Shown here: positions 28,622 through 64,000 of the stretch, piece by piece
Layout of the letters: each line of letters starts with the position of its first letter
Position numbering within the stretch: the stretch's first letter is position 1
Assembly (NCBI GenBank): GCA_019096195.1
Contig: JAGTXK010000187.1
Coordinates: 761,935-825,934 of the forward strand
Source of the DNA: Boletus sp. NGJ
Taxonomy: Eukaryota > Basidiomycota > Agaricomycetes > Boletales > Boletaceae
Length of the DNA stretch: 64,000 nt
Reading direction: 5' to 3'
Translations under genes and position numbers: made by a program
The notes under the pieces: generated by a model
What the model saw: the letters and a program-made list of their open reading frames with translations, nothing else
Told to the model about the DNA's origin: nothing
The model's database searches: none

Positions 28622-29678
28622 GTCAACGAAGGCAGGAAGAGATGATATTGGACTAGGACTTACGGTTTCGCGGGGATGACCCGAAAATTGACATGATAGC
28701 CATGACGGTGTCAGTGGGCGTCTTGAACGCCTACTCGAACATTCGCAGGTTGTTATAAGGTCTTGCCAAGAGACTGAGTCACGTAACATTATATGGGCCA
28801 GCCTGTGCTGTGGCCTCACGATGGGCACTGGGCAACGGTATAATGCTGCGCCAGTGACTAATATTCATCCATGGTTGCTGGTGAGAGTCTGCCTAACTTG
28901 GAAATTGATGTATATCGTATCCCACCTCCGCGACAACGAGCAGTGCGGAATCAATCAGATTTTAGACGCCAGATTCATAATAGCTTGTTCACATACCCGG
29001 GTGCTCCATTCTAATCGGCTCCACGATAGAAAGTGAGGGTTGTGCTCGGGGCCTAAAACCTTCCGAGTGTCGTCAGTGTATAGCGAACGAAGTAGTGGTG
29101 TACCAAAGATCCCGACCTTAGGGCTTTGACATCCCCAGTGCCAGTGAGGATACCGTGACTGACCCACTTTAATTCGACCCTACGATTGATCAACCTTAAA
29201 TTATGTCAGTGCCTGAGCAGTGCCTCATGAGCGAGGCCCATCAGCCGAGTCCACCTCATGTCTTGCCGAGACTGCCCGTGTCTGTCAATATTTCAATCCT
29301 GGGCAGGTACATCACCGCCCGACCTACATAGCTAGCCATCAAAATCAGCCCGAATGAATCTTTCATCACGCGGCGAGAAATGCACAATGGTAGACGAACA
29401 AACGAGTCCTCGTCACCGGTTCCGGCTAAGTTGTTAATCAAAATATAGAGTTTGGTTCTGTCGAGATTTTTGGGACCCTTAGTAAGCTCTGGCGAAAAAA
29501 GATCTCGTACAACTCCGAGCATCGGCTCACCAAGCTCCTGGATAGCTCGACCGAATCTCGTTTCCTTTTCCTACATACACTCGACTTCACGCTCACATTC
29601 AAGCCTTGGATTTGTCACGTATATGAACCGATATTTATTGTATACAATTCGCTTGTCATCCAACACTATTTATATAAT
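28622..29678. other. intergenic, no recognised gene
   Basis: This is the promoter side of the HET-like gene and the 3' flank of the CipC-like gene. Short open frames (for example 29256-29522) show no domain or linked splice sites. Confidence 0.45.
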
Positions 29679-41916: not shown

Positions 41917-44289
41917 ATTCAGACCCAATGACTCCTCGCAGCGTGCAAGATGTAGATTGCGCAGATATGGATGGACAGACGAATATGGGCGGTGCAGAAA
42001 ATTTTACAAGGAGGCTGCCCCCCACCCACCCACCCACCCACCTCCTGTCCATCCTTTCCCTCTTTGCTATCGTACTCGCTTTTTTCTTTTTCTTTTCTTT
42101 TTGTCGCTGTTTGCGCATCTGTCTCCCTTCATCGTTGCATACCCCGTCGCTGAATGCTTTTTTTTTGCTGTGCACTAGTCGTGGTTCAATATAACCCTGT
42201 GACGGATGGTCCGTCCTTGCTCTCTGTATTGCTAGTAACTCGTACCGTTGCGAAAACTATACGTGCCCTCACGACGATGGCGACTATCTTCGAGGATGCC
42301 TTTTTGGCTTCGGACATAGTTCGGCGACACAGCGGCCGGCAAGTCCCTGGTAGACGCCCCTGTGTTGGCCACCTTCATTCATTTGTCCACGATGTCGTAC
42401 TTGAATACATCGTCGTTTTCTAATTCGAGACATCTTCCGACGGTTTCTGCTCTGTTTTTGTTTCTTTTTCTTCTTATAGATCCAAAGCACATTGACATAA
42501 TACACATCTGTATCACAATCTTACCATGCTACGCTGTACCTACGCCCTGATCTTCGCTAGCCCGAGAATTCGACGATCGTTTTCAACGCGTGGCCTTCTC
42601 ATCTCGGGTGTACCCTCGCGGCCACGTCGAATCATATACACACCTCCGATAAGGTTATCTTGTCGTTGAACGACATGCGAATGTGTCTGTGACACGGCGG
42701 TACTTGACCACGCTCAGCATTATAGTTTATATTGAGTATACCCAGACTATTACCTTTGTCTGGGGGGCGCATCGAACCAGAACGTCGACGACTTTGCTAT
42801 TCTGCTAAAAAGACTGTCCTATCACAAATCATTACTGGCACCGTCCATCGAACGGTGTGAGACTCGGATCCCAGACACTGTCGAGTGTCCACTACAGGTT
42901 CATGTATCACCCAGGACAGTCTCGTTTACTGGTCCGAGGTGTCCGAGAGCGGGTGTCGAGACGACAGAAATGGCTGTGTCATGAGTCTGGGTCGGAGAAA
43001 CTTGGACGATGCTCGTGTTTAGAAGGAGTCGGAGTCGGTGGAGCGCACGGATTGTGTCGGTAGTGTCATTACCCTGGGGCATCCTTGGGACATACGGAGA
43101 TGGAGCACAGGCGGGATGAGGCTAGCTACGAGTGCGTCAGCTCTCCATCGCAGTTGGTTTGACGCGAATAAACTCACGCTCACTTTGTGCGTAAATACAG
43201 ACCAGTCGTTTTAAATTCACCCTCGCGTGCTGAAATGACGCAACGAGGCCCGAATGTGCATTCGGTCTGGTATTGGGAAGCGTTGAAGTCCATCCATGGG
43301 TTCGTCCGACTGCAGAGGTCGTACCACCGCGACGATCCAAGCCTAACGAGCTAGTTTTCATTCCCGCGTCAGAATGCCGATAGTGAAGAAGATCATTTCT
43401 CTTGTAGGTTTCGTCGAACCTCGCAGGGGTGGCGCTCGAGAGCGTTCCGGCCTTCTTCCCGCGTTACGCATCGACTGAGCGTGTACATGAGCACTGGATC
43501 CAAACGGAACCAATCTCCCCTACTCATGAACACCACCTTCCATCTGTAAACAGGAAAGATCACCATCTTGAATCTGGTGAACGTTTAGTTCTCGGCTTCG
43601 ACATGTGCCGACGACTTGTCATCGACCCTAAAAAAGCGAGGATCCGCTGGTCACAATCGGCGCCTGGACAACTTCCCGAACGCTCGGATACTCGTCGGTG
43701 TATAACCACTGCAGAGCTGACCCGACAACTTTGGTTGCCAGAAGTGGACCACCCTGGCCAGATCGACAATGCTGACCTATGAGGCCGCTTTCGGACACCC
43801 TGGGCCGAGGCTCCAGTACTGTGTATTCAGAATGCGAACCTGCTGAGATCGATGGTAGCCTTGCAAACTTTTGCCCCACTTCGAGTTGGCACTGCCGGAA
43901 TCACCACCGTAGATTTAGGTTATATACGTATCGATTGATTTTGTATTGATCACTAGAACATGACATTTGGATGTTCGAACAAACATCGACTGGTGCTCGG
44001 ATCTATACTGCACATACATTTTCGTTAAAGGTTTTTAAAATGGGCTTCCGACAATGTGCGTTGACTGTTGAGCACGACCCGCACGCTTCCCACATCCGTT
44101 TAGTAGCGGGACCGAGGACGACCTCGGGATTTCTGCAGCGCGGTCAGAGCATACATTCGATTCCAGTGGAATTAATTCAGTCCCAGTAACCGTAAGCGCA
44201 AGTGCGACGAATCGTAGCGATTTTGGAGCATAGAAAGAGGCCATACATGAGAAAATAAATATGGGTATCGTGAGTGACTGGATTACAAG
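41917..44289. other. gene-poor 3' region of wc1 and unassigned DNA
   Basis: Pyrimidine-rich 3' flank of wc1, then 43.1-43.9 kb with a few open frames on the plus strand (for example 43429-43782). None could be assigned to a family. Confidence 0.4.
42018..42042 (+). repeat. (CCCA)n microsatellite
   Basis: About six tandem CCCA units directly after the wc1 stop codon region, probably in the 3' UTR. Confidence 0.8.
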
Positions 44290-44343
44290 TAGAAAATCGT
44301 AGAGGAAATCATTCAAAAGTCCACGAGTACGAGAGAATACAAA

Positions 44344-45889
44344 TCAGGAAAGAGTCATTGTCGCAGCAATGTCAGGGTGTAGAAGGGCCAGGTCGTATGT
44401 TGGTCTTATTTCCACTCCACGCTGTCGTGCCTGTGATTGCAGGATGATACAAGATTTGATCAATGGCACGAGGTCCTCGTTCTCGTTTCGTCGTGGCTTG
44501 AGGATATCGAATTCCTCGTGACCGAAGAGTGCCATAAATAATTCGTGCACCGTCGAAATGTGACGCTTCAACGCATCCTTGCGAGACAATCTAAACGGAT
44601 CGATATCAGCAAAAACAGCCCGATCGAGGATAGAAAACCCAACAAGAGACTCACGGTCGGCACGACTTTCCAAGTATCATACAAATGCGGCAATAAAATT
44701 CGCCTTCATCACAAGGTTTTTTCTTCTTGCGGCGCTTTACTTTGCAATCGCCCTGCTGTGGTCGAAACATCAGGCGATGAAATGTTTGCCAAAGTGTCAG
44801 ACATACCGCATCCGTGCATTCCCCCTGTCGTTGTTTTTTGGCACAGACCTCTAGGTCGTTCTCGGACCGTTTGCGTTTCGCTGCCGGGGGATGGGTCGCA
44901 GAATTGCTCGAAGAGTGGGAGGAAGATCCACTTGGTGCTGAAGTCGAGGCTGGTGAGTCGACTGGCGACTGTCCTGCATCTGGTCCCGGCGGAGTGATAG
45001 CATCGACGAAAAAATCTGCAATCTGTTCTGGGGACAGCACGTGTGGGTATCCCTCGACGACGGTGGACAAGGTGTCGATGCAATAATCTCCGTGACCAGA
45101 GCATTCAGAGTTGAGATTGCCGAAACAGCTGTGGATCGTCGTATTCTCCTCCGTTGGATGGGACTGGTTGTTGGACAGCACGTGTGGGTATTCCTCGACG
45201 AGGGCGGACAAGGTGTCGATGCAATAATCTCCGTGGCCAGAGCATTCAGAGTTGGGATTGTCGAAACAGCTGTGGATCGTCGTATTCTCCTCCGTTGGAT
45301 CCCCTGGCGCAACGAGACCCGAATGAGACTCTTCATTGGTCTGATAATATTCTCCATGAACGTCTCCAAGCTCCCGGCGAGGTTCCGCCACGGCGAGATC
45401 GCCTTCAGCAGCTTGCCCTTGATCCAGAGGTGCCTCGGACTGCGTAGGAACCGAAGACTGGAAAGTGAACGGGGCAGGTTGCTCGTGATGACCATTGTCC
45501 ACGGAAAGAGGGACGGGGGCGTTGGTACTGGTAACATTTCGAACAAGCATGTCGTGGAAAGGGTAGTGCGTCCCAGGGACATTGGTGTTATTCATCGGTG
45601 GCGCTGGATTTTCCAGGGGTGGAATGAAGCCCGTCGGCGAATAAATGGTGTTGTGGCCTTGAAAGTTCGGCACGTTGTAGACACCACCCGCACCATACGC
45701 ACCCCGAACCAAGGGAGAGAATGCGGGAAGGGTGGCATTGGCGGGCGAGGCTATAGGGGGGTGGGACGCTCCAACGATCGGGTACAAGCTGGGATACTTG
45801 TGAAAGAAAGCCCTTGGGAGAACTCCAACGAATCGGGACGGATCCAGATACATCGATGTCGAAGCCCCCGGAAAATGTCTAGACGACAT
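44344..45889 (-). CDS. orphan protein with 47-aa tandem repeat and zinc-finger-like tail, copy A
   Basis: Mirror copy of the gene at 62401-63946 and apparently identical to it. The start is placed at 45889 (MSSRHFPGASTSMYLDPSRF) because a TATA-like TATATA lies about 115 bp upstream, followed by a CT-rich block. An in-frame ATG at 46084 is also possible. Two exons are joined by a 64 nt gtgagt...tag intron (44654-44591). A Pro/Asn-rich N-terminal half is followed by two near-identical 47-residue units (SECSGHGDYCIDTLS core) and a Ser/Pro-rich linker. A basic cluster (AAKRKRSENDLE) and KVKRRKKKK suggest nuclear location. YCRICMILGKSC splices to LSRKDALKRHISTVHE, a C2H2-like finger with an unusually long loop. 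Function unknown; a DNA-binding regulator is inference. Confidence 0.7.
45018..45299 (-). repeat. 141-bp tandem duplication inside the orphan gene, copy A
   Basis: Two units of 141 bp (47 codons) begin with the string TCCAACGGAGGAGAATACGA on the coding strand and differ at only a few bases. Each encodes a segment with three cysteines (SCF, SEC, DYC) and ends PHVLS. Confidence 0.9.
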
Positions 45890-46002
45890 GGGAAACGAGG
45901 AAGCGGTGGATTTGAGGAAGGGGGTGGATGAAATATCTCGAGGTGAGGGATGACTAGCAGAAGCGGTCCTTCTGAGAGGGGGAGAAGCGTCAACGAGCTG
46001 AA

Positions 46003-46008
46003 TATATA
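46003..46008 (-). promoter_or_regulatory. TATA-like element of orphan gene, copy A
   Basis: TATATA on the minus strand, about 115 bp before the preferred ATG at 45889 and followed by a CT-rich run. It is the mirror of the element at 62282-62287. Confidence 0.4.
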
Positions 46009-47790
46009 GCCAAAGGTTGGACTCTGTGATTAACATGGTTAAACAAGCACCGTATGCTGTACGGTTAACGACTGGCACTTGCATGTCAAAGCGACCTCTG
46101 CGGTGATTTCCGGGTGTCGTTTCGTAAATCAAGGATGACTAGATGGATACAGGAAGTTTTTCGAAACCAAGCACGAGTTGCCTTAGGCGAGGTGTAAATC
46201 CGGTCCAAGAAAATATCCAATTTGTGGACCTACAATGGGTGATGCTCCAGAACAAAGCAAAGCTGCCGCTTTGACCGACATTGACCGGCCGTTTCATCGG
46301 CAGATTCGTGTCCATCTCTCCACGTTTTGGGGAGTTCAAAATTAATGGGATATCGATATCGGGAGATCTATTCGTCTACTTTCGTGGACCGTTTGAAAGT
46401 AGCATGTTCCCTGTGAAAATGTACAGTGACATATGGAAACAATGGACGGAAGCAATTCACCCACCTCATGCTGACCAAATGAACGATGAACCTGTTGTTA
46501 TGGGCTGCCGAATGGTCCTGCCATAGATGTGTTGAGTTCCGACCGGAGAGGGATTCGAGGGATGGACGGAGGGAAGCGGTGCACGTCAGATGTAACGCCA
46601 AGTAAACATCAACTTTCTGGGCCTTCCATGAGGGTCAAAGCGCCTCGCAAATCGGCGGTGCCAGAATTGAGAAAGGGTGCCAGATGTTCCATTAAACGAG
46701 GCAACAATAGACACAGAAGCCAATGTAGACGGGCCGGCCTGGCTTCCGCGCAGACTTGTCCACGAAAACTGGGGCATTTCTTCCCGCGTCAGAGAACGAG
46801 TGTATTTCCAGGAATGAAGATGAATCTCTTCGACGCCAGATGAGCCTGTGGTACGCGTCACTTTCTGTTGTCTTTATGTCAACATGAGCATTACCCCAGA
46901 CCCCCTACCTCCTTCCGCCAGCTTAAATCATCAAGTCAATGGATTTTTCCATTGCATCGTAGAACGACTCGCTCCAGGGAGTCCCAGACATGATACCTTC
47001 GCTGGGTTCCGAAGTCCATCACTAGGGTGCAGAAAATGTAAGAGACACGGTAGAAAGAAGAATGGTCGCCGCGAAATGCAAATAGGTGGCCGCCATGAAA
47101 CACTTGGGACAGACCCACAGACGGTTTCGCCGATCAGTACATCGCGGGCAGGCCAAACTACTCCGAACAGGCCGACTGGGCTTTTGACGGTGCTCTACAA
47201 AAATAGTGTCAACAAGATGAGTTGCACCTTTATCGACAGCTGGTTTTCGCCGACGTACCGTGAGCTGATAGGTAATCTGAATAGGGCGACATACCTGACT
47301 ACCATTTCATGTGTGTGAGACATTAACGACGATAGAAATTTTGAAAAGAATGTGCTCTCTTGCACGTTGCCTAGATGGGCAACCCAAGAACCGATATACA
47401 TGTGAACCATACACTGGCAGTCGCTGGAACGACTGACGACCCCAACAGTATTTCGTCTTGCGAGAGACACGCTGAAAAAACGCGGAAGTGACCGTGATTT
47501 GGGGAATTGGGTGGCAGGTGCAGAAGAGGTGCACTGAACGATATGACAAAGGGAGGGAAGAAGAGAGAAAACAGACAGCGATATCCACAATGAAACGGAC
47601 GACTTATAACCTTGTTCTGGCTCTGACCCACAAGCCACCGCGGACATCCGGGGTGAAGCTTTGGAGTTGGGCCATCCAGTACCCGTCACGGGCTTCGACA
47701 ATGAAAATACCTTCCGCTAGTGGTCTAGCTGTGTAAAACGTTTTCCACTGACGGACGACAATTCCCCGTACATTGACACAACACAGTGGA

Positions 47791-48347
47791 AAGATGATAG
47801 ACATGACATAGTGCTGTACAAAGTCATCTTCTTGCGAACAAGTTCGAGTTCACAATCACGTGCCAATGCGTGTTTACATGACCCGTCAACCTTTTGTTCT
47901 TGAATGAGTCCGGGTTCACTGTGCCCGAGGCGTCTGAATCCGACTGCACTGCCTGCAACTGCCTCAAGCCTGAGTACTAAGTTTTGAACCAAGTTCTCAT
48001 GCAGTAGAAGGTATGTTTTGCTTATCATCTCGACACTTGCTGTAGCTGGCAAATATAGCCTCACGGCTAAAGCGATGGCAGTGCGAGCAAGCGCTCGCCT
48101 CTCTGTTCAAATAATCGTCCACAATTCTCTGGGTGATCGCTAGACATCCTCGCACTCCAATCGGGGTATGTGTTGCTAAATAACGACTCTGACTCGCTTG
48201 CCTGTCGGTGTTAACTCTTTCCTGGCCGACAGATTAGCATTCGATCGACAGTGAAGTGACAGATTAGGACTCATTAACCGTGTCTTCAAAAGTATGTAGC
48301 GCGCCATTGTGGTCTTCAGATCCCGTCCCAACACTTCACACAGCAGC
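47791..48347. other. intergenic upstream of the HET gene
   Basis: No recognised gene; presumed promoter of the HET-GTPase gene. The inverted-repeat similarity fades out at its left edge. Confidence 0.4.
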
Positions 48348-50021
48348 ATGCGTCTTCTCAATTCCAGGTCGAAACAACTAGAGTTACTACACCGCAGTCC
48401 TGGTCCCTACGCGATCGTATCCCATCGATGGGGTGATGAATCGGAAGAAGTTCTCTTCACCGACATCGGTGACCAAGCGCGCGCTCAGAGCAAGGGCAGG
48501 GGCTACCAAAAGATCTTGGGTTCCTGCGAAAAGGCGATACAAGATGGGCTCAACTACGTTTGGTTGGATACCTGTTGCATCGATAAGAGCAATAGCATGG
48601 AACTCAGCGAGGCGATCAACGCGATGTACAAGTGGTATGAGAAGTCGGAAGTCTGCTATGCCTACCTGCACGATGTCAGCGACCCGTCCGAGTTTACCAA
48701 GAGCGATTGGTTCTTGCGTGGTTGGACCCTACAAGAGCTGATTGCACCAAAAGTCCTCAAGTTCTTTACGAACAATTGGACTTTGATTGGCACTCGGGAG
48801 GGGTTGATAGACACCATCACAGAGCAGACGGGGATCAGCCGCGAGATTCTTTGGTCTGGTAAAATTCCCCCAGAGGTCATATCCCAAAGAATGTTCTGGG
48901 CAGCCAAGAGAGACACGACTAAGGTGGAGGATAAGGCGTACTCGCTGTTGGGTATACTTGGCGTTCACATGGTTCCCATCTATGGGATAGACGATGTCGC
49001 ATTTGAAGAACTGCAACACAAGATCATCGTAAAATACCCCGACCAAACCCTCTTCGCTTGGTGCTATACTCCTCAGCCTGAAGACGTCGAGATGGTGGAC
49101 GCAAATCCACCTCCTGATGCACCTCCAGATTCGGCTCCTGATCCAGCCCCAGAGTCGGTTGAGGGCGATGCCAACACCCCTGTAACCAGCCCCACGGGAC
49201 TTCTCGCATCCTCTCCATCCCAATTCCCGGTATCCTACGATATCGATGAAGACGACTTCCGCACGAATTACTTGGACCGCATCGGATTCAGAGATCACAT
49301 GTTTCAACCATACTTCAACATCAGTAACAACTTGGTCAACATCTCCCTCCCTATCAAATATGTGACGGGAAAGATCTGGAAGGCAATCCTGCGTTGCAGT
49401 TTCGAACCTCCCGGTGATGAGCCCCAGTGTCCTCTCGTTATCTACCTTGAAGAAATTCAACCATTGAAATTCGTCCGGGTGCACCTTGCACGCAACGAGG
49501 AGGAGGGAGACAACCAGACGGATGACGTGAACACTATCCCCGGGAGCTTGGAGCGGTTGAGTGACGTAGAATCGAAGCTGGAGGGGTATATCTTACGGAC
49601 CATCCACGTGATCGGCCGACATTTAGAGGGCCCTTCTGATGATCGACCGAGACCACCGCCTGGTGATCCGGATTCTCTCCCCGAATTTAGCGAAGCCGAA
49701 CGTATCGCCCAGCTACCCCGACACCCGCCTGGTGTTAAGACCACTAACGTCATCGTCTGCGGGGAGCCAGGGGTCGCCGCAGGTAGGGTGGTCAACCTCG
49801 TTGTTGACAAACCCGTCATAAAGCCACTCACAGACTATGACCGTGAAGCCATGGCGGTCACGGTCATCGATTTCACTCTCCAATCCAAGAACATCCGTAT
49901 ATTCTATACCATTGGTCCCAGAGACCCTTTTCTCGATCTCGACATTTACCATACCGCGATCCGAAACATGTACCAACTCGTTCAATTTGCCGAGGAATCC
50001 ACCTCGTATTGTTGTGCATAG
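48348..50021 (+). CDS. HET-domain protein fused to a degenerate GTPase domain (frame-broken)
   Basis: The start is the ATG of MRLLNSRSKQLELLHRSPG, the usual opening of basidiomycete HET proteins. The HET domain covers about residues 1-230: YAIVSHRWGDESEEVLFTDI, NYVWLDTCCIDKSNSMELSE, INAMYKWYEKSEVCYAYLHD, WFLRGWTLQELIAPKVLKFF and KVEDKAYSLLGILGVHMVPI are all in place. A Pro-rich linker follows. From about residue 470 the sequence resembles P-loop GTPase domains of fungal STAND-like or AIG1-like proteins: NVIVCGEPGVAAGRVVNLVV, then KNIRIFYTIGPRDPFLDLD. The P-loop has lost the GKS/T of the Walker A motif (GEPGVAAGR instead of GxxGxGKS). The frame ends in a stop at 50019-50021, but coding similarity continues in another frame. 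HET domains in ascomycetes trigger incompatibility cell death; here the protein may be inactive or act through the HET part alone. Confidence 0.85.
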   Translation: MRLLNSRSKQLELLHRSPGPYAIVSHRWGDESEEVLFTDIGDQARAQSKGRGYQKILGSCEKAIQDGLNYVWLDTCCIDKSNSMELSEAINAMYKWYEKSEVCYAYLHDVSDPSEFTKSDWFLRGWTLQELIAPKVLKFFTNNWTLIGTREGLIDTITEQTGISREILWSGKIPPEVISQRMFWAAKRDTTKVEDKAYSLLGILGVHMVPIYGIDDVAFEELQHKIIVKYPDQTLFAWCYTPQPEDVEMVDANPPPDAPPDSAPDPAPESVEGDANTPVTSPTGLLASSPSQFPVSYDIDEDDFRTNYLDRIGFRDHMFQPYFNISNNLVNISLPIKYVTGKIWKAILRCSFEPPGDEPQCPLVIYLEEIQPLKFVRVHLARNEEEGDNQTDDVNTIPGSLERLSDVESKLEGYILRTIHVIGRHLEGPSDDRPRPPPGDPDSLPEFSEAERIAQLPRHPPGVKTTNVIVCGEPGVAAGRVVNLVVDKPVIKPLTDYDREAMAVTVIDFTLQSKNIRIFYTIGPRDPFLDLDIYHTAIRNMYQLVQFAEESTSYCCA

Positions 50022-50515
50022 TTGGGAGCAGGATCACAGGGGCTGTGGAGAGCAACTATCGCCTATTCAACGACTACATTTGTCGTAAGAAGGTACCTAT
50101 GATGCTCATCGTCACCGGGCTCGGGAAGACAAGGCGGATGGACGATTGGTGGGACAAGCACAAGACCGACCGAGAGATTCGAGCTATGAGCTTCAACAAG
50201 TACGCATGCATTATGGTATTGCAAGGCGAAGACGAAGAGCACGAGCAAAAGTACAAGGATTCCGCGCAGACTGTCAAGGAACTCCTCGTGGAGTTTTTGG
50301 AACGCCTCGAGACGCCACTCGAGGGGTATTGTCCCGATGACGCGAATCAATGGTTCGTATCCATGGGGAAACGGACGACGAATTTCCTCTTGCCTGGTCA
50401 GAGAAGGTCCCTCAAGCAGGAGGCTCTTGCGAAAGTTCTGCAGGAAGGGAACAGGTTGAGTGAGGTGCAGGCGAGTGATCTTGCGGGACAGTTCTTTGAT
50501 GAACACCCCATGTAA
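50022..50515 (+). pseudogene. out-of-frame remainder of the GTPase domain
   Basis: Directly after the stop, the next frame reads LLCIVGSRITGAVESNYRLF then KKVPMMLIVTGLGKTRRMDD, WWDKHKTDREIRAMSFNKYA and onward to EHPM and stop. This matches the second half of the same GTPase-type domain (hydrophobic strand, RxT, N-Y-R-L-F and VITGLE-like G4 region). A single-base loss near 50008-50010 would explain the break. The obvious 52 nt GT-AG candidate (about 49970-50021) does not restore the frame and would remove conserved residues. Either the gene is decaying or this is a base-calling error. Confidence 0.7.
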
Positions 50516-50832
50516 TTATGACACTAGATGTATCCACGTTGTATACCCGTGGCTAGTCGAATATGAGAGGTGCCCGAACCCACGTTTAGCTTGCATGGAG
50601 AGGAATTCGGCACTTTTGACAACAGCAGGGACCGATATCATAGTCATGACACGAGCTCGAGACAAGCGACAGGATGGGGGCCGCCAAAATAAGTCTAGTC
50701 GTATAGACGATTCGAAGCGACGAACGTACACAGAGCGTGTAGTAAGGAAGAACACAAGTAAGCAAACAACAAAAATCACAATAGCAGAGAATAATCATAG
50801 CAGGTTCTCGATCCCCCCCCCGCCTCGTGGTT

Positions 50833-53018
50833 TCAACCCAGCTGCGCAAAACTGCCATCGCTCACCGGTCCCGCCTCCCCTTCTATCGGCGTCCCCGAGG
50901 GCACTTCGCTCACTGGCGTACCCTGACTGGTCGTGCCAAGATTGGCGTTCTTGCCCAGCTCGGCTCTGACCCCGTCCAACATCCGTTTGAGGTTCACCCG
51001 CTCGTTGACGAGTGCCATGCGTGTGCTCTCCAAACCTTTTCGTTCTTCCTCGAGGAGCTCTTCTAGTTCCTCAAACGCGGTCATCTTGAGTTCGAGTTTG
51101 GTCAACGTCAGCTTGATCAACGACGCGAGCGTGCTTCGAATCGTCGCGTCCTCCGCATCCGCGAGCGCCGATGCAGCACGCGCCGATGATTTGAGAGCGA
51201 GCCCGGCAGCACGCGCCACGTGGGACTGAGGGATTTTCAGTGCAGGTTTGGTCGATTCCTCAGGCTGGTCGACGACCATGTCGTTTCCCTGCGGGCCCGG
51301 CGTACCGGTCTTGATCGACGGTTCACCATTTGGTGACGCCGACGGTACCTCTGGAACGTCTTGTTGCATCGCATTTTCCCCCTCGACTTTCTCGCCGTCT
51401 GCACCCTCCTTGGTGACCCTCTGCTTTTCGTTTTCGTTTTCCTTCGGGGCACCGCCCTCGACGAGCACGTGCATCGCTGTCTTGGCTGCTTCTGCGGCAA
51501 CAGCGGGGTTTACCACCCCGGCGAGGAAGGCCACTACGCTCATCACGGGATTATCCGCCTGCTCGAACGGGATCCTCCCGTATCTGAGCGGCCCTTGGTC
51601 CCCTTCTGCTGCAATGTACGGGTCTTCGATCGGTAATGAGAGGAATTTCCGTATACATTGTTGTGCCGTGCGCGTCCCGACGTGATCCTCGATCGCGGTC
51701 CAATCATCGTCATACATCTCGATGCCCTCCAGAAGCAACAACACCTCCTGGTCCGTCCATTCGTCATCCGCACCATGACCAACGCCAGGCGGTGCAGCGG
51801 TCAACTTCACAAAGTCGCCGCTGAACATGGTCGAGGGGAACCGCCCATCGAGATAACATGGAGCGCAGAGCTCAAAGTCTTTGACTTTCAGACTGTGATA
51901 CCGCGATGCGGTACAGTCGGTCCCGCAGGTATCGCATTGGTACGACATGTTTCCTTTGGCATTCGAGCAGATGCCGTTTGCGAGCGATTTGGCTTCAGCG
52001 GTCTTTAGTTCTCGAGAGGCTTTAGAGGTGGTTTGGTAGATGGAATTGCGGAGTTCGAGGGAAGCAGAAGTTGCTGTAGAACTGAGGATAGCGGATGTAG
52101 CGCCGAGCGTTACGGATGCCATCTGAGTTTTCGACATACCATTGGCAGCGGGGTGGGTGCTAGAAGGTCGTGTTCCGGGATGGAGAGACTGAAGACCGCG
52201 AGGCGTGTCGAGGATAACGCGGAAATGTCCTGTGAATGGAGGGACGAGTGCCGCTGGTCTTTGTTCTGGGTCGATCTTACAAAGCCAATCGGTTGGCACA
52301 CATGAGAAGACATCAAGACCGCAAAAAAACGTACCTGATAATTGATGAGTCCCCACTGCTCGAGGAAGGCGTGGACACGCATAATGGCGCAGACATCGCC
52401 AGCCAAGTTTCGTCTGCACGCCGTCACTGTCAAGTACTCTGTTGGCCGAAGACGATATGTGTTAATCATAAAGTCGCGGTACTCTTTATAAATCGAAGGC
52501 GTCTTGGACCGATTCCTCGAATTGAAAAACTCTGGGAGCGCACGACGCTCCACAGGATGGATGGTCGACATGTCGAACCAGGCCGAGTAAGAAGGGATGA
52601 TGACGTCGTGCGTCTGCGCTGCGAGGTATTTTCGGGCTTGTTCCTCGAGTTTCAACCGCGTCAATTCGAGTTGGGCGGGGTCTTCGTCCTCGCCTTCGTC
52701 CCCCGACTCGACGTCTTCATCAACAACCTCGCCCATCGACACGTCGCCCGCATCCTCTTCCCCCTCGCCCTCTTTCAGCACCCGCACCTCTCTCGTGGCA
52801 GCCTCTCCACTCGTCCCTCCTTCACCACCATCTGGGTCGTTCGGTATGTTGCCAATCTCGCCACCCTGGAGGGGGTCCAGTTCTGAGCGCTTTCCAGGTG
52901 CATTTTCGGGGTCGACGGGAGAAGCACCTTGTGATTGTTGGCCTAATGGAACTGTAAGCTTTATACGTTTCGTTTCAGAGGAAGAGGAAGGTGATCCAGC
53001 ACGTTTTGGCGAGTCCAT
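50833..53018 (-). CDS. Swi3/Rsc8-type chromatin-remodelling subunit
   Basis: Core scaffold subunit of SWI/SNF or RSC remodelling complexes (SMARCC family). Start [20 protein letters not shown]. After an acidic stretch the SWIRM domain reads [20 protein letters not shown], then [20 protein letters not shown] and [14 protein letters not shown]-like sequence ([14 protein letters not shown]). An intron follows and joins [23 protein letters not shown]-type zinc finger ([34 protein letters not shown]) precedes the SANT domain ([20 protein letters not shown], then [20 protein letters not shown]). The C-terminus has a long helix around [20 protein letters not shown] that should dimerise. Domain order and length fit Rsc8/Ssr2. 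It is convergent with the HET gene (317 bp apart). Confidence 0.95.
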
Positions 53019-53287
53019 GTTACGAAGCCAATCACCTTGAATGGCTACACTCACTTCTACACATGCGAAAACCGCGGCGCTGCAGTTGACGGCGTTACCA
53101 AACGTATACAAATATGGGGGGTCGAGAGGGGTTACGATGTTATGTAATTACTTAGATTAGCTTTCAATAACGCTGAAGATATGAAGCTTTCATTCAACCA
53201 TTCACTATTCGGCGTCTGACAACTGGCGAGGGAAAAAAAAATAACACGCAATGAATATTATGTCGACTGAGGTTGGTGTCCTTCACT

Positions 53288-53860
53288 CCCCCTCAACCTC
53301 CGTCATCCATCTCCTCATCAGACTCGTCATGATAGGCGGCCTAACAAACGCACTAGAAGATCCTCGATGAATCAACAAAGTTGAATACCTTGTAAGTGAC
53401 ACCGTCCCGCGCCGGGTCCATTGCTAACCACCCAACGGCCGGGGTATACACGCCCCCTTGCGTCGGGAAGTATAGCTGACCGGCCCAATGCCTTGCGACT
53501 CCGTGCTTCCTTTGCTCCGACGAACACCACTCTACAAGGAACCATCTTCAAAATGGGCGGCAAGCGCTTTCGTAGGTTCTGCACCCTTGATTGGTGACTT
53601 GAGACCTGAGCCAATGGTGATTTGAAATGCGAATATCTCTTTCTCGAGCACAAGAGCACTGTCGATGGCGGGGGGTGACCGAATAGTATGGTGGCGTCTG
53701 AACATTTGGTGCATCCTGGGTGGCGCATTCCCTAACAGCCTGTTCGGTGCCTGCAGGTTCCTCGACCATCCAATCCTGATGAGAATGCACCGCAGCAATA
53801 TTCGAGGAACAGCGCCCGCAGGAGTGGTTATGCGCTGGGCATTCAATCCCAACAACATGC
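53288..53860 (-). pseudogene. fragment resembling Crinkler/RHS-type C-terminal region
   Basis: Minus-strand frames, which must change once near 53548, read PPAIDSALVLEKEIFAFQIT, then KALAAHFEDGS. After the shift come VEWCSSEQRKHGVARHWAGQ and LYFPTQGGVYTPAVGWLAMD. A 46 nt intron leads to AAYHDESDEEMDDGG and a stop near 53288. The P-x-I-D-x-x-L-V ... F-Q-I-T pattern is like the nuclease-like ends of Crinkler/RHS-family proteins common in basidiomycetes. The frame break at a TAG suggests a dead or partial copy. Identification is weak. Confidence 0.3.
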
Positions 53861-55049
53861 TGGTCGTCTCGTCAGATTTTCACTGCAGTGCAAGCATATC
53901 ACTCACGCGAGGTTGACAACCTCCTCTTCCCACTAAATATCCATGATGTAGCACGAAGTGCCCATTTGCTTACTCCATTCGTTGGGCGGTGTCACATCTA
54001 GATGATTCGGATATAACATGGATGACACTCAAAGGCACCAGCCTGGAGGACATTCGACATCTGTATTGGAGTCACAGAGAACCCACACGAAGTACAGCGG
54101 GGTCACATCCACCAAGATGGATGCAAGGTGACAACATCTTTGAAGAGCAAGTAGAATGGGTCTGGCAGAAGCTGCAATGCAACCGGCTGTTTCTGGCTAA
54201 GAAAATGGACGAGCGAATGAAACGAGGAAGAAACAAGTATCTTAAACTCAAGTTACGCCCGACCTCAAAGACTTACCGATACCAGGGTGTCCTGTAATAC
54301 AACCTCCTCTTTGATATGCACCTGTCTGCGATGCGCGCACTGATGCAGCACGATACTCCTCTCTCACGAGAATCTTGTCATGTTGCAGAATCCCTGCAAA
54401 TGGTGCCCAATGGGACGGAAATATTCACTGAGGTCGATGAACTCGACACCGGATGGAAGCCATCTCAGGAGAGCCTGGGGATTACCCCAAACACTGCGGG
54501 CAAATCGATTCACTGGCAGATCTAGGTAGCGAGAGTGCGGAGTGTGGTGTGTGGGATGGATGTGTGAAATTGAAACTCGAAGAAGGGAGAAAATGACAGA
54601 TTCGTCATGCTCAGGGTGTCCTGTCGGCAGATTCATCGTAACAAGGGTTAGGATCCACCTAATGGCCGACCGCCATAAGGAGAGTACCGCGTTGTCGCAT
54701 TTTTTTCTACTCACCATGATGCAGGTTGAAGTGGTGTAACAACTCATCCAGGGACAAGGTCACGACAGATTCAGGCACCGGCTCAGAACGTTTGAATTGA
54801 TTGCCTAGAATATGGAAGACCTAACGTCTGCAACATACGTTGACAAGGGACAACGAGCACAGAGAGACATAATTCGGCCCATAACGACGTACCGTATCCC
54901 CCACGGTACACATACATACACACACTCGCGTTACACGGGTAGCACGGCCTCGCGCACCACTTGTTTGCTATCTCTGCTTCAAAACCATCGTCTTTAGGGT
55001 GCCAGGTACGACGAAACGTACAAGGGTGCCTGTCGGACCCCAGACCTAA
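53861..55049. other. fragmentary open frames, no assigned gene
   Basis: Frames at 53989-54297 (+; ends VEWVWQKLQCNRLFLAKK...) and 54364-54747 (-; GVEFIDLSEYF segment) look partly protein-like. They are short and isolated and could be gene relics. No family match. Confidence 0.3.
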
Positions 55050-57323
55050 TCAAGGCAACGGCTCTTGACTGCTCGAGAGTTTGTTCAGGTGAATATACAC
55101 GTCTGTGCCAAAGCCATCCATGGAGATGAGGCGCAAGTCGCCACCAAAATACCTCGCATACTATCCAAACAAAATGACCAGATCTAGAATGAGATGATAG
55201 CAGGAAAAATTGCCTCGTAGATGACGCACCAGACGAGACAGCGGTAGGCCATATCCGAAGCCTGCCATCGGCGCTTGGAAGTCGCCTGCCTGTCACAATG
55301 AGATCAGCCCATGACCTTTGTGAAGCGAAGTCAGAACCGAGATCTATTCTTACCTGGAAGTTCTGATCGATACTTTGACCCGCCATGGTCGTATACATAT
55401 ATGTCCAAATGAGTGGAACAGCACTCCTCGGAATACCACCACCCTCGTCCGAGATCTTGATTGTGATGTCCTCGCTCCCCTCAACCACGATGACTTTGAT
55501 CGCGGGGTATCCACCACTGCTCCCGTCCGAGGAAGAGTCTTCGACAATCCGGTCTTCGTACTCTGCCCCGAACCTTTCTACGACAGCTCTAAGCGAATTC
55601 TTGAGCAGCTCGAAGACGATGTGAGATAGATGTCCTGGTACATATGCGAACGTCAGATCGGGAGGGCAAATGAGTTGCACGGGTGGTCCTCGGAACATTG
55701 CATAATGTTCTTCACAGACGAACCGGGCATTCTCGATGGCTTCCTGCAGGATGTCGTGCACATTCTGTCAATGAAAAGTATGCATATGAGGAAGTTATCG
55801 TGAGACAAAAAACCGACAGGACGATGAGAAAGAACTCACGGCTTGGGTACAGATAATACCTACATAATCCTTGTGCGGTTCTTGAGTATTCAATGCAACA
55901 TCTGAGCGCGAGTCAACAAGATGAACGAAACCCATGAAATAGAGTACTCACGTTGTCCAATTAGGAACCGTATCCCGATGCGCGACATATAAAACCTATC
56001 CAACCACGCTTGCACTTCACCTCCGCTTTGCCCATACGCGGGCAGCCCCACTCCCATACCTGCTTTAATTCCCTTTGCCCTCTGCCATTCTAACACACCC
56101 TGAGCGACAGTAGCTACCGTGGGATCATGTCTGTGTTTGATAGCATCCAGTGTCTTGGTGAATCGGGCGTTGTAGTCGTGGACTTCTGGTGGGTAAACAT
56201 GGGAAGGGGTTTGGGCGTAATATCTGTGTGGGACCGCGGGAATCAGAAACGAAGATTGTACAGGGAAGACACCGACCTTCGTTCAACCGGAACACGCAGC
56301 TTGATGTTCCCACTTCGAAGGCCACACACCCCATTACCATTCCCACCTCCATTTCCGTTCCCCTTGTAGGTTCCATTTCCAACCTTGCTCCCGTACATGG
56401 GGCCCTGCTTCTCACCATACGCTAAGCCACTGGCAGCGCCGTCTCCGTCGAGATAGGAAGTGATGAGGGATGGATTAGGAACGTTCTCCGGAATATATAT
56501 ATTCATGTCTTCCTTGTCCGAACGGGCAAATAATGACTGCCGGGCAGCGGGGGATAAGGAAAGGGGCGGAAAATTGATTAATTCCTGTTAATGAAACGTA
56601 ATGTTAGTTGGTTTAAGTTCGAGGATATTCACAAGGGTACAGGGTCTGATAACCCACCTCGAAACTCTGCGCATACCAGTTCTTAACTTTACGTATGGAG
56701 GACATTTCGCTTAAGTTATATGGAAGTTTATCCAGCTCTTTGACACGGTGGGCAAGGCGGACGGGAAGCTCCTCTGCACACCGGAATCGCGTGACATACG
56801 CAGGAACGACAGAAAGTGAAGGAATATGATGAGTTAGAACAACTCAGCAAGTGCATCGAGCTCAAGATGGGCGACTCACCTACTAAAAATTGACTGGCTT
56901 TCAAAAGGGTACCTTGACTGGGATGCTGCCCGAAGAGAACCATTTGTCGAAGGGACACTAAAGCATGAGGTAACGATCAGTATCACATGAAACACGAGAA
57001 CGATCAAATAGAGCATAAAGTAGATAGAGATCAACACGATGCAAAGCAAATGATACCAGTTCTCCATGTCGCTACCTTTGGATTCGCGAAAATATGTACG
57101 ACCTCGGTTCACCCCGTCCACCGGTCTTATGTCCACGGCGGACCCCGAATCTAGAATTGGGGCTGAGGTGGCAAGTCCCGCCACAGAGAGGAGGAAAGAC
57201 AAGACACGAAAAGGAGAGCAACAGAGATATCAAGACGAATCACTGACCTCCAGTCTGAGGAAAGGACGCGAAATGGTGGATCTTCTCCCACAGCGCAGAT
57301 GAGATGCGGAATGCGGCACTCAT
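55050..57323 (-). CDS. mitochondrial pyruvate dehydrogenase kinase family protein
   Basis: GHKL-type protein kinase of the PDK/BCKDK family that inactivates a mitochondrial 2-oxoacid dehydrogenase by phosphorylating its E1 subunit. The start [20 protein letters not shown] leads over an intron to [40 protein letters not shown] and WYAQSFEELINFPP. The ATP site is complete: N-box [13 protein letters not shown]1 [20 protein letters not shown], and G2 [20 protein letters not shown] followed by [19 protein letters not shown] Gly/Asn/Tyr-rich insert of about 50 residues (for example [16 protein letters not shown]) sits between [17 protein letters not shown] and the [20 protein letters not shown] exon, and is not usual. 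At least eight introns. Whether it acts on PDH or BCKDH is not decidable here. Confidence 0.92.
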
Positions 57324-57969
57324 GATGGCAGCGAGATGAGTAGGATAAGTGTACAAGGATGATTCGAGATTGAGAAAGATTTGTGGTTCAGAGCTAGCTA
57401 TCGAAAAGAGGCTTGTGGAGTGGGTGACATGCGTCTGCGAGGGCGTAGGAGTGCCAGGGTTGCAGAGTTCAGTGAAGGGAATAGATGAGTGGTCGCAGGA
57501 ATATGCGCGGATAAAATGAGAGATCAGCCCATGCAAAGAAGAGCTGCTTGGTGGGGGTCGTTGAAGGAACCGTTTTAAATCAGGTGGAGTTGTCGGCTCT
57601 TAGCCCGCTTCCACTTGATACAGTGCCAATCACGTGCGTCGCCTCCCCTAAGCCCTTTCTGACACCGTTTTTGATTGCCGCCACATCACGCTGTGTCGCA
57701 AAGTAGGCAGGCCGACCAGGCACTATAACGATTAGCAGCGCTCAGCGTGCTTAACGGGTATTAGCAGTGCTTTCATTGAGAAGGCCTGACGAATACTTTG
57801 CCTTGTGAAGGGAGCGCACATAGAGCGTCCATAGGGCTTGGGTTCATCCAGAGTCTTCCACGGCTTAAGCGCTCACGCGCACGCCCGGCACACGACCAAT
57901 CGAAAGCACCTCATTCCCAGGTACTGAATATTTAATCACAATCCGGTGGGTGCCAAGTCCTTACAAACA

Positions 57970-58203
57970 TTACTTAGCGGGAGCGGCGTCCATCTGATAC
58001 TCAGGCTCTACCCCGTGACACCTGATACGCACTCCAAACACGTCATCTTTGATGTGGATCCGGTCACGTTGCCCCACCTTGGATTGGACTTGGATTTGGG
58101 TATCTCTGGTAACCGGCGTGTATAATCCACTGCCACGAAGCAAACCCTCCGGCCAGGCGTTAGTCTTAACCATATCTGTACCACCGCTAACTTCGGGGCG
58201 CAT
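57970..58203 (-). other. possible last exon of an unknown gene
   Basis: A minus-strand frame reads MVKTNAWPEGLLRGSGLYTP then VTRDTQIQVQSKVGQRDRIH and IKDDVFGVRIRCHGVEPEYQ, ending DAAPAK. Its composition is protein-like and strand-forming, but I could not link it to upstream exons or a family. Confidence 0.3.
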
Positions 58204-60489
58204 GAGCAGTGACTCGGAGGCGTCAAGATCCGGAGAGCAACCTTAGTCATTCTAGTCATCTTCATCCCAGTACGATCCACAGACGGCAGTAAACATGGAC
58301 CGTGCCACCTGAAACACTAGCTTTCACCCTTGACTACGGGTCAGGTCGGGGTTAATGACCAGGTTGGTCTCCAGCTGTCAAGAACATCTGGACATACGCA
58401 TCCGTGTGTGTCCGATATTGTGGACTTGGAGCCTTCCCTCAATTCGCGCCTTTTGTTTGACCTCGGCTGATCATCGAGCGAGTTTCGCTATTCGACACGG
58501 TCCGATGAACAGAAGCTCTACTGTCTAATATCATTATTCACAGGCATGTCTGGTGATCTTTAGATGTCCGAACTCCTCGGACCTTTGATGTGTTGCCATC
58601 TCGTCTCCCGCAAGGATAATCTATATCACCATGCGAAGGTCAGTGCTCAAGCGCTCACTGGCAAGCATTTTTCTGACGAGTATTATACACAAGTTGCCAG
58701 TAATCATTCGAGCGTTATTGTAACGCATTCCATGCGTAGACAAGGGGATAGCACCAGTTGGGCAGTTTCCGACAGCCTGCACGTAAGGCTGGATAAATGG
58801 GAAGGGCTGATGCTCCAGTGCTCAATGCTCTCCCTTGTCGCGCTACAGAGCGATTTCGCAAGGTGTTTGATACCAACGTTAACGAGAACTGGCATGCCGA
58901 CCGTGAGAACCTGTACAGCCAACGCTCAAAAGACGTGACGAATGTCCGTGGTTGCCTACGAGTGTAGCCTTGACAAATCATATTTTCCGTATCGCCCTAC
59001 ATTCGATGCTAGACCACAAGATTGGGACGGCACAAATGAGCTACGAATGTGCCAAGACGCGTTGGACTGAATGGAGAGGTTTCCCAAAAAACTTAAAGAT
59101 ATATACGTCTTCGTGGAGATCGATCTTGCTCACCACCGTCCGCTTGACTTGGAAGTCGCCGATGAGCTCTTCACGCTACATTTCACTCTGACTTGGACTG
59201 AGATCCTTGCACTCAGAGTGATTTCATGCAGCATCACTGCGCACATCGGGATGTACTCTACGTTAACTGTAGTAGTCGTCGATTGTATCCGCTGTGTTTC
59301 ACTCCCGGCGCGCGATAAGTTCTCCAGTGTTTATCGGATATCGACTGCGTATAATACTAACACCCTTGAAACCGCACCTGATCGAAGGTCAGAATCAGGT
59401 TACCCCCGACGTGGAACTAAATATCGTTGGAGCGAACGTTGGAATGTTGCAGTCAGGTGTCGTGAAGCTTCATGTCTTCTGCAGACCGACTTATTATGGG
59501 TCATGTAGCGTCGAGGATGACTTGCAGATGGGTATTGTGTGTGGAAATTTATGGAATCGGAGCGGTAGTTTGAGCGGTCGCGACGAAACAAGTATTAACC
59601 GCATGATCTGCTTAACACTCTTGGTTACTGCTCCGAGTCTGGTTATGCTGAATGCGTTGACAATTGTGCCGAGTCATTTGTCCCATCCTATCACACTCAT
59701 TGACCATCAGAGTGGCCATGGTGAGCTTCGAGAGCCATATCTCTGGGTACCACGTGCACCAGCACCAAATTGAAAGCACGGGATACACCTGAATGCAGGC
59801 GTATAGGAACCTAGAATCTACGTCGACGTCGTCCTCACATCGCGGCCACGCTCACCTCATTGACCAACTCGCCCGTGTCCACGGAAAGCGTTCGGATCGT
59901 GTGTTCAGAATAGTGCGGAACTATGCTAGTAGTAGGCTGGATTTCTCAAGCCATCAACAAACTTTGCCCACCATCCGTTCCCACGCCTCGTTTATATGGT
60001 CCGAGCATACGCTGTGCCCTTTCAAGGCAGAGCGCGTGAGGAAGAGACTCGTTATCGGTGGCCCATTTTCATATCCTCCGCCAACCTGTAACATAACAAG
60101 GACCTATCGTCTTCCACGGATTGACGTCTCTCTGGGCCGGGTAGATTAATGTCAAGTGTGGTTCACAAGCTTAAAAGCGAATTTGACTATCGAGGCACGT
60201 TCCTGTGCGAATGAGTCCTCTGAATCTAGAGTGACCTTTGCTGATGAAGGTGAAATCGCACCCTGTTGCCGGTGCAATGATGGAAGATGTACCGCAATCC
60301 AGGTGAGCACACAGTGGCCTCTGCACCGACAAGGATCACTGATAGGCTAACGTTCAAGCCAGAACCCAAGCAAGCGCTGGCACGTGATTCAATGTAAACA
60401 ATTAAGAGACGAACCAGCACACGGCGTGGCGTATCTGATCAGCACCAGTGACCGAGTGACTACTTAGCCGTTCCACGGTCATGGTTGTG
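58204..60489. other. gene-poor stretch with short open frames
   Basis: Overlapping plus-strand frames (58564-58938, 58952-59191, 59071-59508, 59294-59773) look like a broken gene seen in several frames. No domain could be identified. Part of 57324-57969, just to the left, is the promoter of the PDK gene. Confidence 0.35.
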
Positions 60490-62281
60490 GTAGTGCATGG
60501 GCAAATGTCGTCCGAAAGCCAAACATCGTAGCCACACTTCTAGCGGAGGCACAGTAATATTGTCCTTGGGATTGTCGGAAAGCGAACCGAATTGGAAGGC
60601 CCACTACACCGGATCTCCGCGTATTTGTCTTGTGGGTCAGACACCAAGACAAGGTTATAAGTGGTCTGCTCTGGTGTGGGTGTCACTGTCTCATTTCTCT
60701 CTTCCTCCGCCATACCGTTCAGTGCATCTCTTCCGCACCTGGCCGCTTCCCCGACTTATGGTCGTGTTCACGCTTGTTGGCAACGCATTTCTTACAAGAC
60801 GAAATATTACTATTTGGGTCAGTTGTCATTCAGTCGTTCCAGTGTCTGCCATTAATGTATGGCCCACCTTTTGGGTTGCCCATGGTAGCGTGCAAGACAG
60901 AACATTTCCCGTTGTCGGTATTTCCTGCACATATCAAAAAGTCAGGTATGTCGCCAGGTATAGATTACCACTGAGGTCAGGGTATGATGACTAGAATCAG
61001 GCGTCGACAAGGGTTCAGCTCGTCTTGTTCACGCTCTACTTCGGGAGTACCGCCAAAAGACCGACCGGCTAGGAGGTAGTCGTCTGTTCAAGGTGGTTGG
61101 CCCCACTTCTGACGCACGTAGCGATGAAGTTGTCTGCGGCGATTCTGTCGCAAGTGTTTCGGGTGGCCACGCTCGTCGCCATCTGCATTTCGTGGCAACC
61201 ACTCTTGCTTCTACCGAATCTCGTACGCTTTCTACACCCTCCTGATGTGGCTTGGGAGCCGTGAGGTACTATATGTGTGATGCCCTAGTGTGAGTTGTTC
61301 TACGATGCAATGCAATTCACTGACCTGGTGATTGAAGCTGGTGGCTGAATGCATGTGTCGTCTGGGGTGGTGCCCATACTGAGATAAAGACAGCAGAAAG
61401 TAACGTGTACCACAGGCTGATCTGGCGTCAAGGAGATTCCTGGAAATACACTTGTTCTCTGGCGCGGGAAGAAAACCTCTTAGTTTTCGTGGGGAGTCTA
61501 CGTGGAAACTAGGCCGACCCATACACACCGGCTTGCATCACATTTTTGACCTAGTACGTATTTATCCTCCCGATGGGACGCGCTGGATGTGTCGTCCAAC
61601 GAACATCTGGCACCCTTTCTCAATTCTGGCACCGCCGATTTGCGAGGCGCTTTGACCCTCATGGAAGGCCCAGAAAGTTGATGTTTACTTGGCGTTACAT
61701 CTGACGTGCACCGCTTCCCTCCGTCCATCCCTCGAATCCCTCTCCGGTCGGAACTCAACACATCTATGGCAGGACCATTCGGCAGCCCATAACAACAGGT
61801 TCATCGTTCATTTGGTCAGCATGAGGTGGGTGAATTGCTTCCGTCCATTGTTTCCATATGTCACTGTACATTTTCACAGGGAACATGCTACTTTCAAACG
61901 GTCCACGAAAGTAGACGAATAGATCTCCCGATATCGATATCCCATTAATTTTGAACTCCCCAAAACGTGGAGAGATGGACACGAATCTGCCGATGAAACG
62001 GCCGGTCAATGTCGGTCAAAGCGGCAGCTTTGCTTTGTTCTGGAGCATCACCCATTGTAGGTCCACAAATTGGATATTTTCTTGGACCGGATTTACACCT
62101 CGCCTAAGGCAACTCGTGCTTGGTTTCGAAAAACTTCCTGTATCCATCTAGTCATCCTTGATTTACGAAACGACACCCGGAAATCACCGCAGAGGTCGCT
62201 TTGACATGCAAGTGCCAGTCGTTAACCGTACAGCATACGGTGCTTGTTTAACCATGTTAATCACAGAGTCCAACCTTTGGC

Positions 62282-62287
62282 TATATA
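62282..62287 (+). promoter_or_regulatory. TATA-like element of orphan gene, copy B
   Basis: TATATA followed by a CT-rich stretch, about 115 bp before the ATG at 62401. It supports a start at 62401 over the earlier in-frame ATG at 62206, which lies upstream of the element. Confidence 0.4.
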
Positions 62288-62400
62288 TTCAGCTCGTTGA
62301 CGCTTCTCCCCCTCTCAGAAGGACCGCTTCTGCTAGTCATCCCTCACCTCGAGATATTTCATCCACCCCCTTCCTCAAATCCACCGCTTCCTCGTTTCCC

Positions 62401-63946
62401 ATGTCGTCTAGACATTTTCCGGGGGCTTCGACATCGATGTATCTGGATCCGTCCCGATTCGTTGGAGTTCTCCCAAGGGCTTTCTTTCACAAGTATCCCA
62501 GCTTGTACCCGATCGTTGGAGCGTCCCACCCCCCTATAGCCTCGCCCGCCAATGCCACCCTTCCCGCATTCTCTCCCTTGGTTCGGGGTGCGTATGGTGC
62601 GGGTGGTGTCTACAACGTGCCGAACTTTCAAGGCCACAACACCATTTATTCGCCGACGGGCTTCATTCCACCCCTGGAAAATCCAGCGCCACCGATGAAT
62701 AACACCAATGTCCCTGGGACGCACTACCCTTTCCACGACATGCTTGTTCGAAATGTTACCAGTACCAACGCCCCCGTCCCTCTTTCCGTGGACAATGGTC
62801 ATCACGAGCAACCTGCCCCGTTCACTTTCCAGTCTTCGGTTCCTACGCAGTCCGAGGCACCTCTGGATCAAGGGCAAGCTGCTGAAGGCGATCTCGCCGT
62901 GGCGGAACCTCGCCGGGAGCTTGGAGACGTTCATGGAGAATATTATCAGACCAATGAAGAGTCTCATTCGGGTCTCGTTGCGCCAGGGGATCCAACGGAG
63001 GAGAATACGACGATCCACAGCTGTTTCGACAATCCCAACTCTGAATGCTCTGGCCACGGAGATTATTGCATCGACACCTTGTCCGCCCTCGTCGAGGAAT
63101 ACCCACACGTGCTGTCCAACAACCAGTCCCATCCAACGGAGGAGAATACGACGATCCACAGCTGTTTCGGCAATCTCAACTCTGAATGCTCTGGTCACGG
63201 AGATTATTGCATCGACACCTTGTCCACCGTCGTCGAGGGATACCCACACGTGCTGTCCCCAGAACAGATTGCAGATTTTTTCGTCGATGCTATCACTCCG
63301 CCGGGACCAGATGCAGGACAGTCGCCAGTCGACTCACCAGCCTCGACTTCAGCACCAAGTGGATCTTCCTCCCACTCTTCGAGCAATTCTGCGACCCATC
63401 CCCCGGCAGCGAAACGCAAACGGTCCGAGAACGACCTAGAGGTCTGTGCCAAAAAACAACGACAGGGGGAATGCACGGATGCGGTATGTCTGACACTTTG
63501 GCAAACATTTCATCGCCTGATGTTTCGACCACAGCAGGGCGATTGCAAAGTAAAGCGCCGCAAGAAGAAAAAACCTTGTGATGAAGGCGAATTTTATTGC
63601 CGCATTTGTATGATACTTGGAAAGTCGTGCCGACCGTGAGTCTCTTGTTGGGTTTTCTATCCTCGATCGGGCTGTTTTTGCTGATATCGATCCGTTTAGA
63701 TTGTCTCGCAAGGATGCGTTGAAGCGTCACATTTCGACGGTGCACGAATTATTTATGGCACTCTTCGGTCACGAGGAATTCGATATCCTCAAGCCACGAC
63801 GAAACGAGAACGAGGACCTCGTGCCATTGATCAAATCTTGTATCATCCTGCAATCACAGGCACGACAGCGTGGAGTGGAAATAAGACCAACATACGACCT
63901 GGCCCTTCTACACCCTGACATTGCTGCGACAATGACTCTTTCCTGA
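62401..63946 (+). CDS. orphan protein with 47-aa tandem repeat and zinc-finger-like tail, copy B
   Basis: The same gene as copy A in the opposite orientation. Exons run from 62401 (or the in-frame ATG at 62206) to 63635, and 63700-63946. The 64 nt intron (gtgagt...tttag) keeps the frame: ...ILGKSCRP joins LSRKDALKRHISTVHELFMA, ending IAATMTLS. From 62401 the protein is about 493 aa. The N-terminal part is Pro/Asn/Gly-rich and probably disordered. Then come two Cys-containing 47-residue units, a Ser-rich linker, two basic clusters and the Cys/His tail. The coding parts of both copies show no differences, so both may be expressed or one may be an assembly mirror. No known family was recognised. 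Confidence 0.7.
62991..63272 (+). repeat. 141-bp tandem duplication inside the orphan gene, copy B
   Basis: Period 141 bp (the unit starts at 62991 and again at 63132). The two units differ at only a few positions (for example FDNPNSE versus FGNLNSE), which points to a recent in-frame duplication. Confidence 0.9.
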
Positions 63947-64000
63947 TTTGTATTCTCTCGTACTCGTGGACTTTTGAATGATTTCCTCTACGATTTTCTA

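Follow-up and report, generated by a model that had tools for sequence, protein, structure and literature searches.

An inverted repeat with identical outer and diverged inner arms at a contig end of Boletus sp. NGJ: the second outer arm is slightly more likely the first met again than an old arm kept uniform by gene conversion

How can one inverted repeat be perfect in its outer part and strongly diverged in its inner part? This question is raised by the final 64,000 bases of contig C101 (825,934 bp) in the Boletus sp. NGJ assembly (GCA_019096195.1), the whole stretch of DNA that was analyzed and that is referred to here as the window. The left outer arm (R; 44290 to 46689, minus strand) is the exact reverse complement of the right outer arm (R'; 61601 to 64000, plus strand), with 2400/2400 bases matching, and R' reaches the last base of the contig. 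Inward of these lie D1 (46690 to 47800, minus strand), on the 5' side of the gene carried by R, and D2' (60480 to 61600, plus strand), whose alignment contains 23 gap runs and 1042 ungapped columns, 69.1% of them identical. Letter-shuffled controls of this alignment (n = 20) gave 40 to 46% identity; the homology between D1 and D2' is therefore real. The spacer measures 14,911 bp between the identical arms and 12,679 bp between the diverged ones. Judged from this alignment, D1 and D2' are shown to form an inverted repeat, real and old, whose arms of about 1.1 kb enclose 12.7 kb.

The original prediction had described outer arms that mirror each other base for base, an abrupt change of identity, and about 12.7 kb of flanked sequence, all of which the measurements bear out. 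Its value of about three quarters identity for the inner arms was slightly high, while the homology and the indels that it reported were confirmed. The plot of identity along the aligned arms, which it had called for, displays a perfect match throughout R and R' and then a sudden drop in D. Just inside the switch, about 80 bases of the left arm are scarcely alignable between D1 and D2' (0.52 and 0.58), and an indel of 39 bases adjoins the switch; the next two 60-column windows reach 0.86 and 0.85, and values further inward range from 0.50 to 0.87. The D1/D2' differences comprise 196 transitions and 126 transversions with no strand bias, and thus carry no sign of RIP-like decay. The order of the arms is collinear, as R' continues D2' gaplessly just as R continues D1, with order and orientation preserved.

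The identical arms contain a gene. In R it occupies positions 44344 to 46138 on the minus strand, with a frame open from 46138 (576 codons open, start codon not fixed), a predicted 64-base intron at 44654 to 44591, and a second exon running to a stop at 44346 to 44344. The arm holds this entire open reading frame, and the stop lies 54 bases inside its outer border. A letter-for-letter copy is present in R' at 62152 to 63946 on the plus strand. A Pfam comparison of the product found nothing over the cut-off (the best match was EGF_alliinase, at 18.1 bits versus 25), and the end of the protein is presumably C2H2-like, as judged by eye. Two tandem 128-base units inside the gene (45032 to 45300, mirrored at 62990 to 63258) are 95.3% alike and encode a repeated peptide with CSGHGDYC. 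No tRNA genes were found in the 64-kb window, and no Rfam match was found in positions 40000 to 64000. Protein conservation was considered as the source of the identity between the arms and rejected: selection at the protein level fails to account for it, because the 669 bases of R in the intron and beyond the open frame are equally unchanged (zero differences; ln P of about -247 at the divergence of D). Perfect identity of R beside 69% identity in D is impossible at one common rate, so R' was either recently made from R or is R read again.

Gene conversion between two real arms would account for this contrast. According to this explanation, which the original prediction had put forward, an old inverted duplication that spans 3.5 kb or more and comprises the R gene and its 5' flank D lies with both arms on one chromosome; R was recently made uniform by conversion, while D drifted to 69% identity. 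We regard it as a serious possibility that falls somewhat short of an even chance. The repeat is indeed old and diverged, the R-D order is collinear in both arms, and the identical tract is adjoined by homologous but diverged sequence, as conversion would leave it. The identity of the 669 bases, for which protein selection is no explanation, also fits. Conversion tracts are expected to end where they meet heterology, and the switch is abrupt beside the 39-base indel and the poorly alignable bases; within the conversion explanation, the tract would have stopped at this stretch beside 46690. Against it, no outer border is seen, since the contig stops inside the right arm although the left arm was assembled through, and no other contig with the remainder of the right arm was found among the matches listed. 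The G+C content of R is not raised either (0.514 versus 0.499 to 0.515 across D1, D2', the flank, and the loop), which is a weak argument. The absence of a third copy among the listed matches and the presence of two haplotypes in the assembly, both described below, lend weight to the fold-back suggestion of the original prediction.

The position of R' at the end of the contig bears directly on the question. Because position 64000 ends C101, it is the end of the contig, and not the sequence, that fixes 44290 as the outer border of the identical arm, and the perfect copy ends exactly where the contig does. The left arm was assembled through from its flank into D1, whereas the contig stops within the right arm. 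We infer that reads or links bridged the left R, and that an R' of equal length with a unique flank of its own should have been bridged too. When the genome (32.8 Mb, 141 contigs) was searched, the matches listed included neither a further copy of R, D1, or D2', which argues against a mobile element as the origin of the arms, nor another contig end with the far side of R'. The search for a diverged second R gene elsewhere in the genome gave a best other match on C7 at an E value of 0.045 and 28% identity. The telomere motif TTAGGGTTAGGG and its complement are both absent from the window, and no N letters were seen in the window or in the 26 loci examined.

In a control on contig starts, megablast compared the initial 10 kb from 20 of the 141 contigs and found 0 pairs of places at ≥99% identity (a partner lying more than 10 kb in would escape); contig starts thus do not commonly carry exact duplications. 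No exact duplicate was listed for the start of C101 (4 kb) or of C40 (5 kb) against the genome, nor was one found for the repeat-rich start of C110 (10 kb) among the 39 of 237 candidates scored. The contig starts have features of their own: G+C content is below 0.46 in 12 of the 20, many have in common related repeats that reach about 6 kb in length, and several open with AGGGTTAGGG-like motifs. Separately, a TTAGGG array at 495981 to 496075 of C107, about 23 kb inside this 519,165-base contig, is a possible internal telomere remnant.

The assembly contains two haplotypes at a homeodomain locus. Matches to Homeobox_KN fall on contigs C130, C132, and C35, and, in the stretches compared, C132 (11,939 bases) matches the surroundings of the homeodomain genes on C130 at each of its ends, with 97.6% identity over 170 bases at one and 98.0% over 443 bases at the other. 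From these flank matches, C132 seems to be a separate small contig that carries the other allele of this homeodomain mating locus, and the sample is therefore probably a dikaryon. A comparison of C132 (1 to 11939) with C130 (66001 to 80000) revealed apparently two HD pairs on the former and one on the latter. Haplotype divergence beside the homeodomain genes amounts to 13/613 (one locus, 613 bases), and the case of C132 demonstrates that the assembly can retain differences between haplotypes. If R' were the allele of the other haplotype and the locus resembled the homeodomain flanks, about 2% difference would be expected, and the ln P of 0/2400 would be about -51, or -27 if the divergence stood at its lower 95% bound. 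Such an allele would be compatible with the observed identity only if the locus were locally alike in the two haplotypes or had become uniform through polishing.

Identical inverted arms around a segment of this size also recall mating-type loci that switch by inversion, as in Ogataea or Komagataella. The arm of about 2 kb and the segment of 12 to 19 kb resemble the Ogataea polymorpha mating-type locus, described in PMC8496258 as 2 kb repeats around a 19 kb segment. None of the 7 listed Homeobox_KN matches and none of the 24 listed STE3 matches lies on C101, the latter falling on C56, C102, C73, C16, and C59. Since these two basidiomycete mating-type gene families sit on other contigs, a mating-type flip/flop was rejected as far as they are concerned, and we consider it highly improbable. 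A cluster of several STE3 receptor genes was observed at 100502 to 111683 of C56. As a group, the STE3 receptors, the homeodomain genes, and the HET genes would fit a basidiomycete.

The evidence from the contig end, the searches for further copies, and the haplotypes leads us to the reading that we favor. We hold it marginally better than an even bet that R' is either R re-read, through an assembly or haplotype fold-back, or the product of a recent fold-back duplication, the two being taken together. The balance tips slightly toward R' being the left arm encountered once more, and away from an ancient arm whose identity conversion has preserved. What looks like another established gene may be a single stretch that was read a second time or copied recently. 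Past D2', the contig would re-enter the sequence of R in reverse, and past position 64000 the sequence would go on to mirror 44289, 44288, and the positions leftward of them. By the first route, which takes the larger share, this would be an assembly or haplotype fold-back in a two-haplotype sample. By the second, it would be a real and recent fold-back duplication in which the broken end at D2' paired with D1 and copied R outward. Both routes would leave one old locus for the R gene and not two long-lived arms. The fold-back side gains weight because the contig ends at 64000, a third copy is unlisted, and the assembly holds two haplotypes.

Several observations run against re-reading or fold-back. 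The order and orientation of R and D are repeated gaplessly in R' and D2', which a plain duplication explains at once. D1 and D2' are only 69% alike and an assembler would hardly confuse them; a pure software error would therefore require some additional cause. The roughly 80 scarcely alignable bases beside the switch are awkward for a pairing of D2' with D1 at that place, although the spacer does have the inverted homology at its edges that is a trait of fold-back duplications (69.1% over 1042 columns, poor in these 80 bases). The suggestion in the original prediction of a fold-back assembly error joined at an existing diverged repeat is thus partly upheld: the old repeat is real, and the contig end, the listed matches, and the haplotypes favor it, while the poorly alignable bases and the collinearity do not. 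A more specific version, in which one nucleus of the dikaryon lost a chromosome end that was rebuilt by fold-back at the old diverged inverted repeat beside the HET-domain gene, leaving nuclei that differ in structure, appears unlikely to us; if true, the rebuilt nucleus carries a long inverted duplication.

The segment between the diverged arms (47801 to 60479) includes the HET-domain frame (48309 to 50021, plus strand; PF06985, E value of 1.7e-10), two overlapping frames taken as one gene (50833 to 53111, minus strand) with SWIRM, ZZ, Myb, and SWIRM-associated matches, and a kinase-like region (54994 to 57323, minus strand) whose frame at 54994 to 55761 matches HATPase_c. Ten more frames from the segment and D had 0 Pfam matches at an E value of 0.1. 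A DNA search of the genome with the spacer found only pieces of 68 to 82% identity elsewhere, among the 3 of 4 candidates scored, the spacer's own place being unlisted. Pieces of 55050 to 57323 (71 to 82% to C81) and of 53503 to 54493 are, taken together, 68 to 82% similar in DNA to C81 and C129 and are probably paralogues. A second HET-domain protein, with a weak match (26.8 bits versus a cut-off of 22.5), is encoded at 26438 to 28864 of the window on the minus strand. The loop halves inward of D have no mutual homology in a six-frame comparison of positions 42000 to 64000 at an E value of 0.001, which speaks against two alleles joined tail to tail as the makeup of the segment.

With inverted repeats at both its ends and two haplotypes in the assembly, this segment of 12.7 to 15 kb might be inverted in one haplotype or in part of the population, with the contig joining both orientations; the shape of the contig has a yeast precedent in the assemblies described in PMC6692504. 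The position of the switch at the outer edge of D contradicts a simple inversion by crossover between D1 and D2' inside D. The lack of allelic differences in R also counts against the heterozygous or population-level inversion, which overlaps the share given to re-reading and fold-back and seems improbable on balance.

The mirror with an identical outer and a diverged inner part can arise from a contig turning back on itself, and arms that end with a contig should be attributed to gene conversion only when reads support it. Should the copy prove real, the locus would be a natural example, in a two-haplotype fungus, of inverted repeats undergoing conversion or fold-back repair. Inverted repeats are kept alike by gene conversion in sex-chromosome palindromes and in yeast repeats. 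As in these, an identical arm here adjoins diverged sequence at a sharp border; unlike in these, the contig breaks off within the right arm before any outer border or second flank. A precedent for the favored reading comes from the DISCOVAR assemblies described in PMC6692504: two from yeasts with an invertible segment have inverted arms of 118 and 195 kb, differing by 1 base per pair and reaching contig ends, and a third such yeast assembly has identical 15-kb inverted arms that likewise reach them; the authors' verdict was a real inverted repeat artefactually lengthened. The Boletus locus shares with them the identical or nearly identical inverted arms out to the contig end, around a segment that here is apparently unique (PMC6692504). 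The yeast arms of 15 to 195 kb enclose MAT genes, whereas here there are no MAT genes, the right arm alone ends the contig, and an older diverged repeat lies inside (PMC6692504). Human fold-back inverted duplications, as described in PMC3907307, have single-copy spacers of 766 to 70,466 bp (20 of 21 below 15 kb) and, among 21 sequenced junctions, inverted homology at the spacer edge of about 300 bp in 3 and of 2 to 8 bp in 13. Those were characterized by arrays and junction sequencing (PMC3907307), while the locus here is known from the assembled contig alone and its homology at the switch is poor; it nevertheless resembles them in having an apparently unique spacer of a similar size class, inverted homology at the spacer edge, and an outer copy (PMC3907307).
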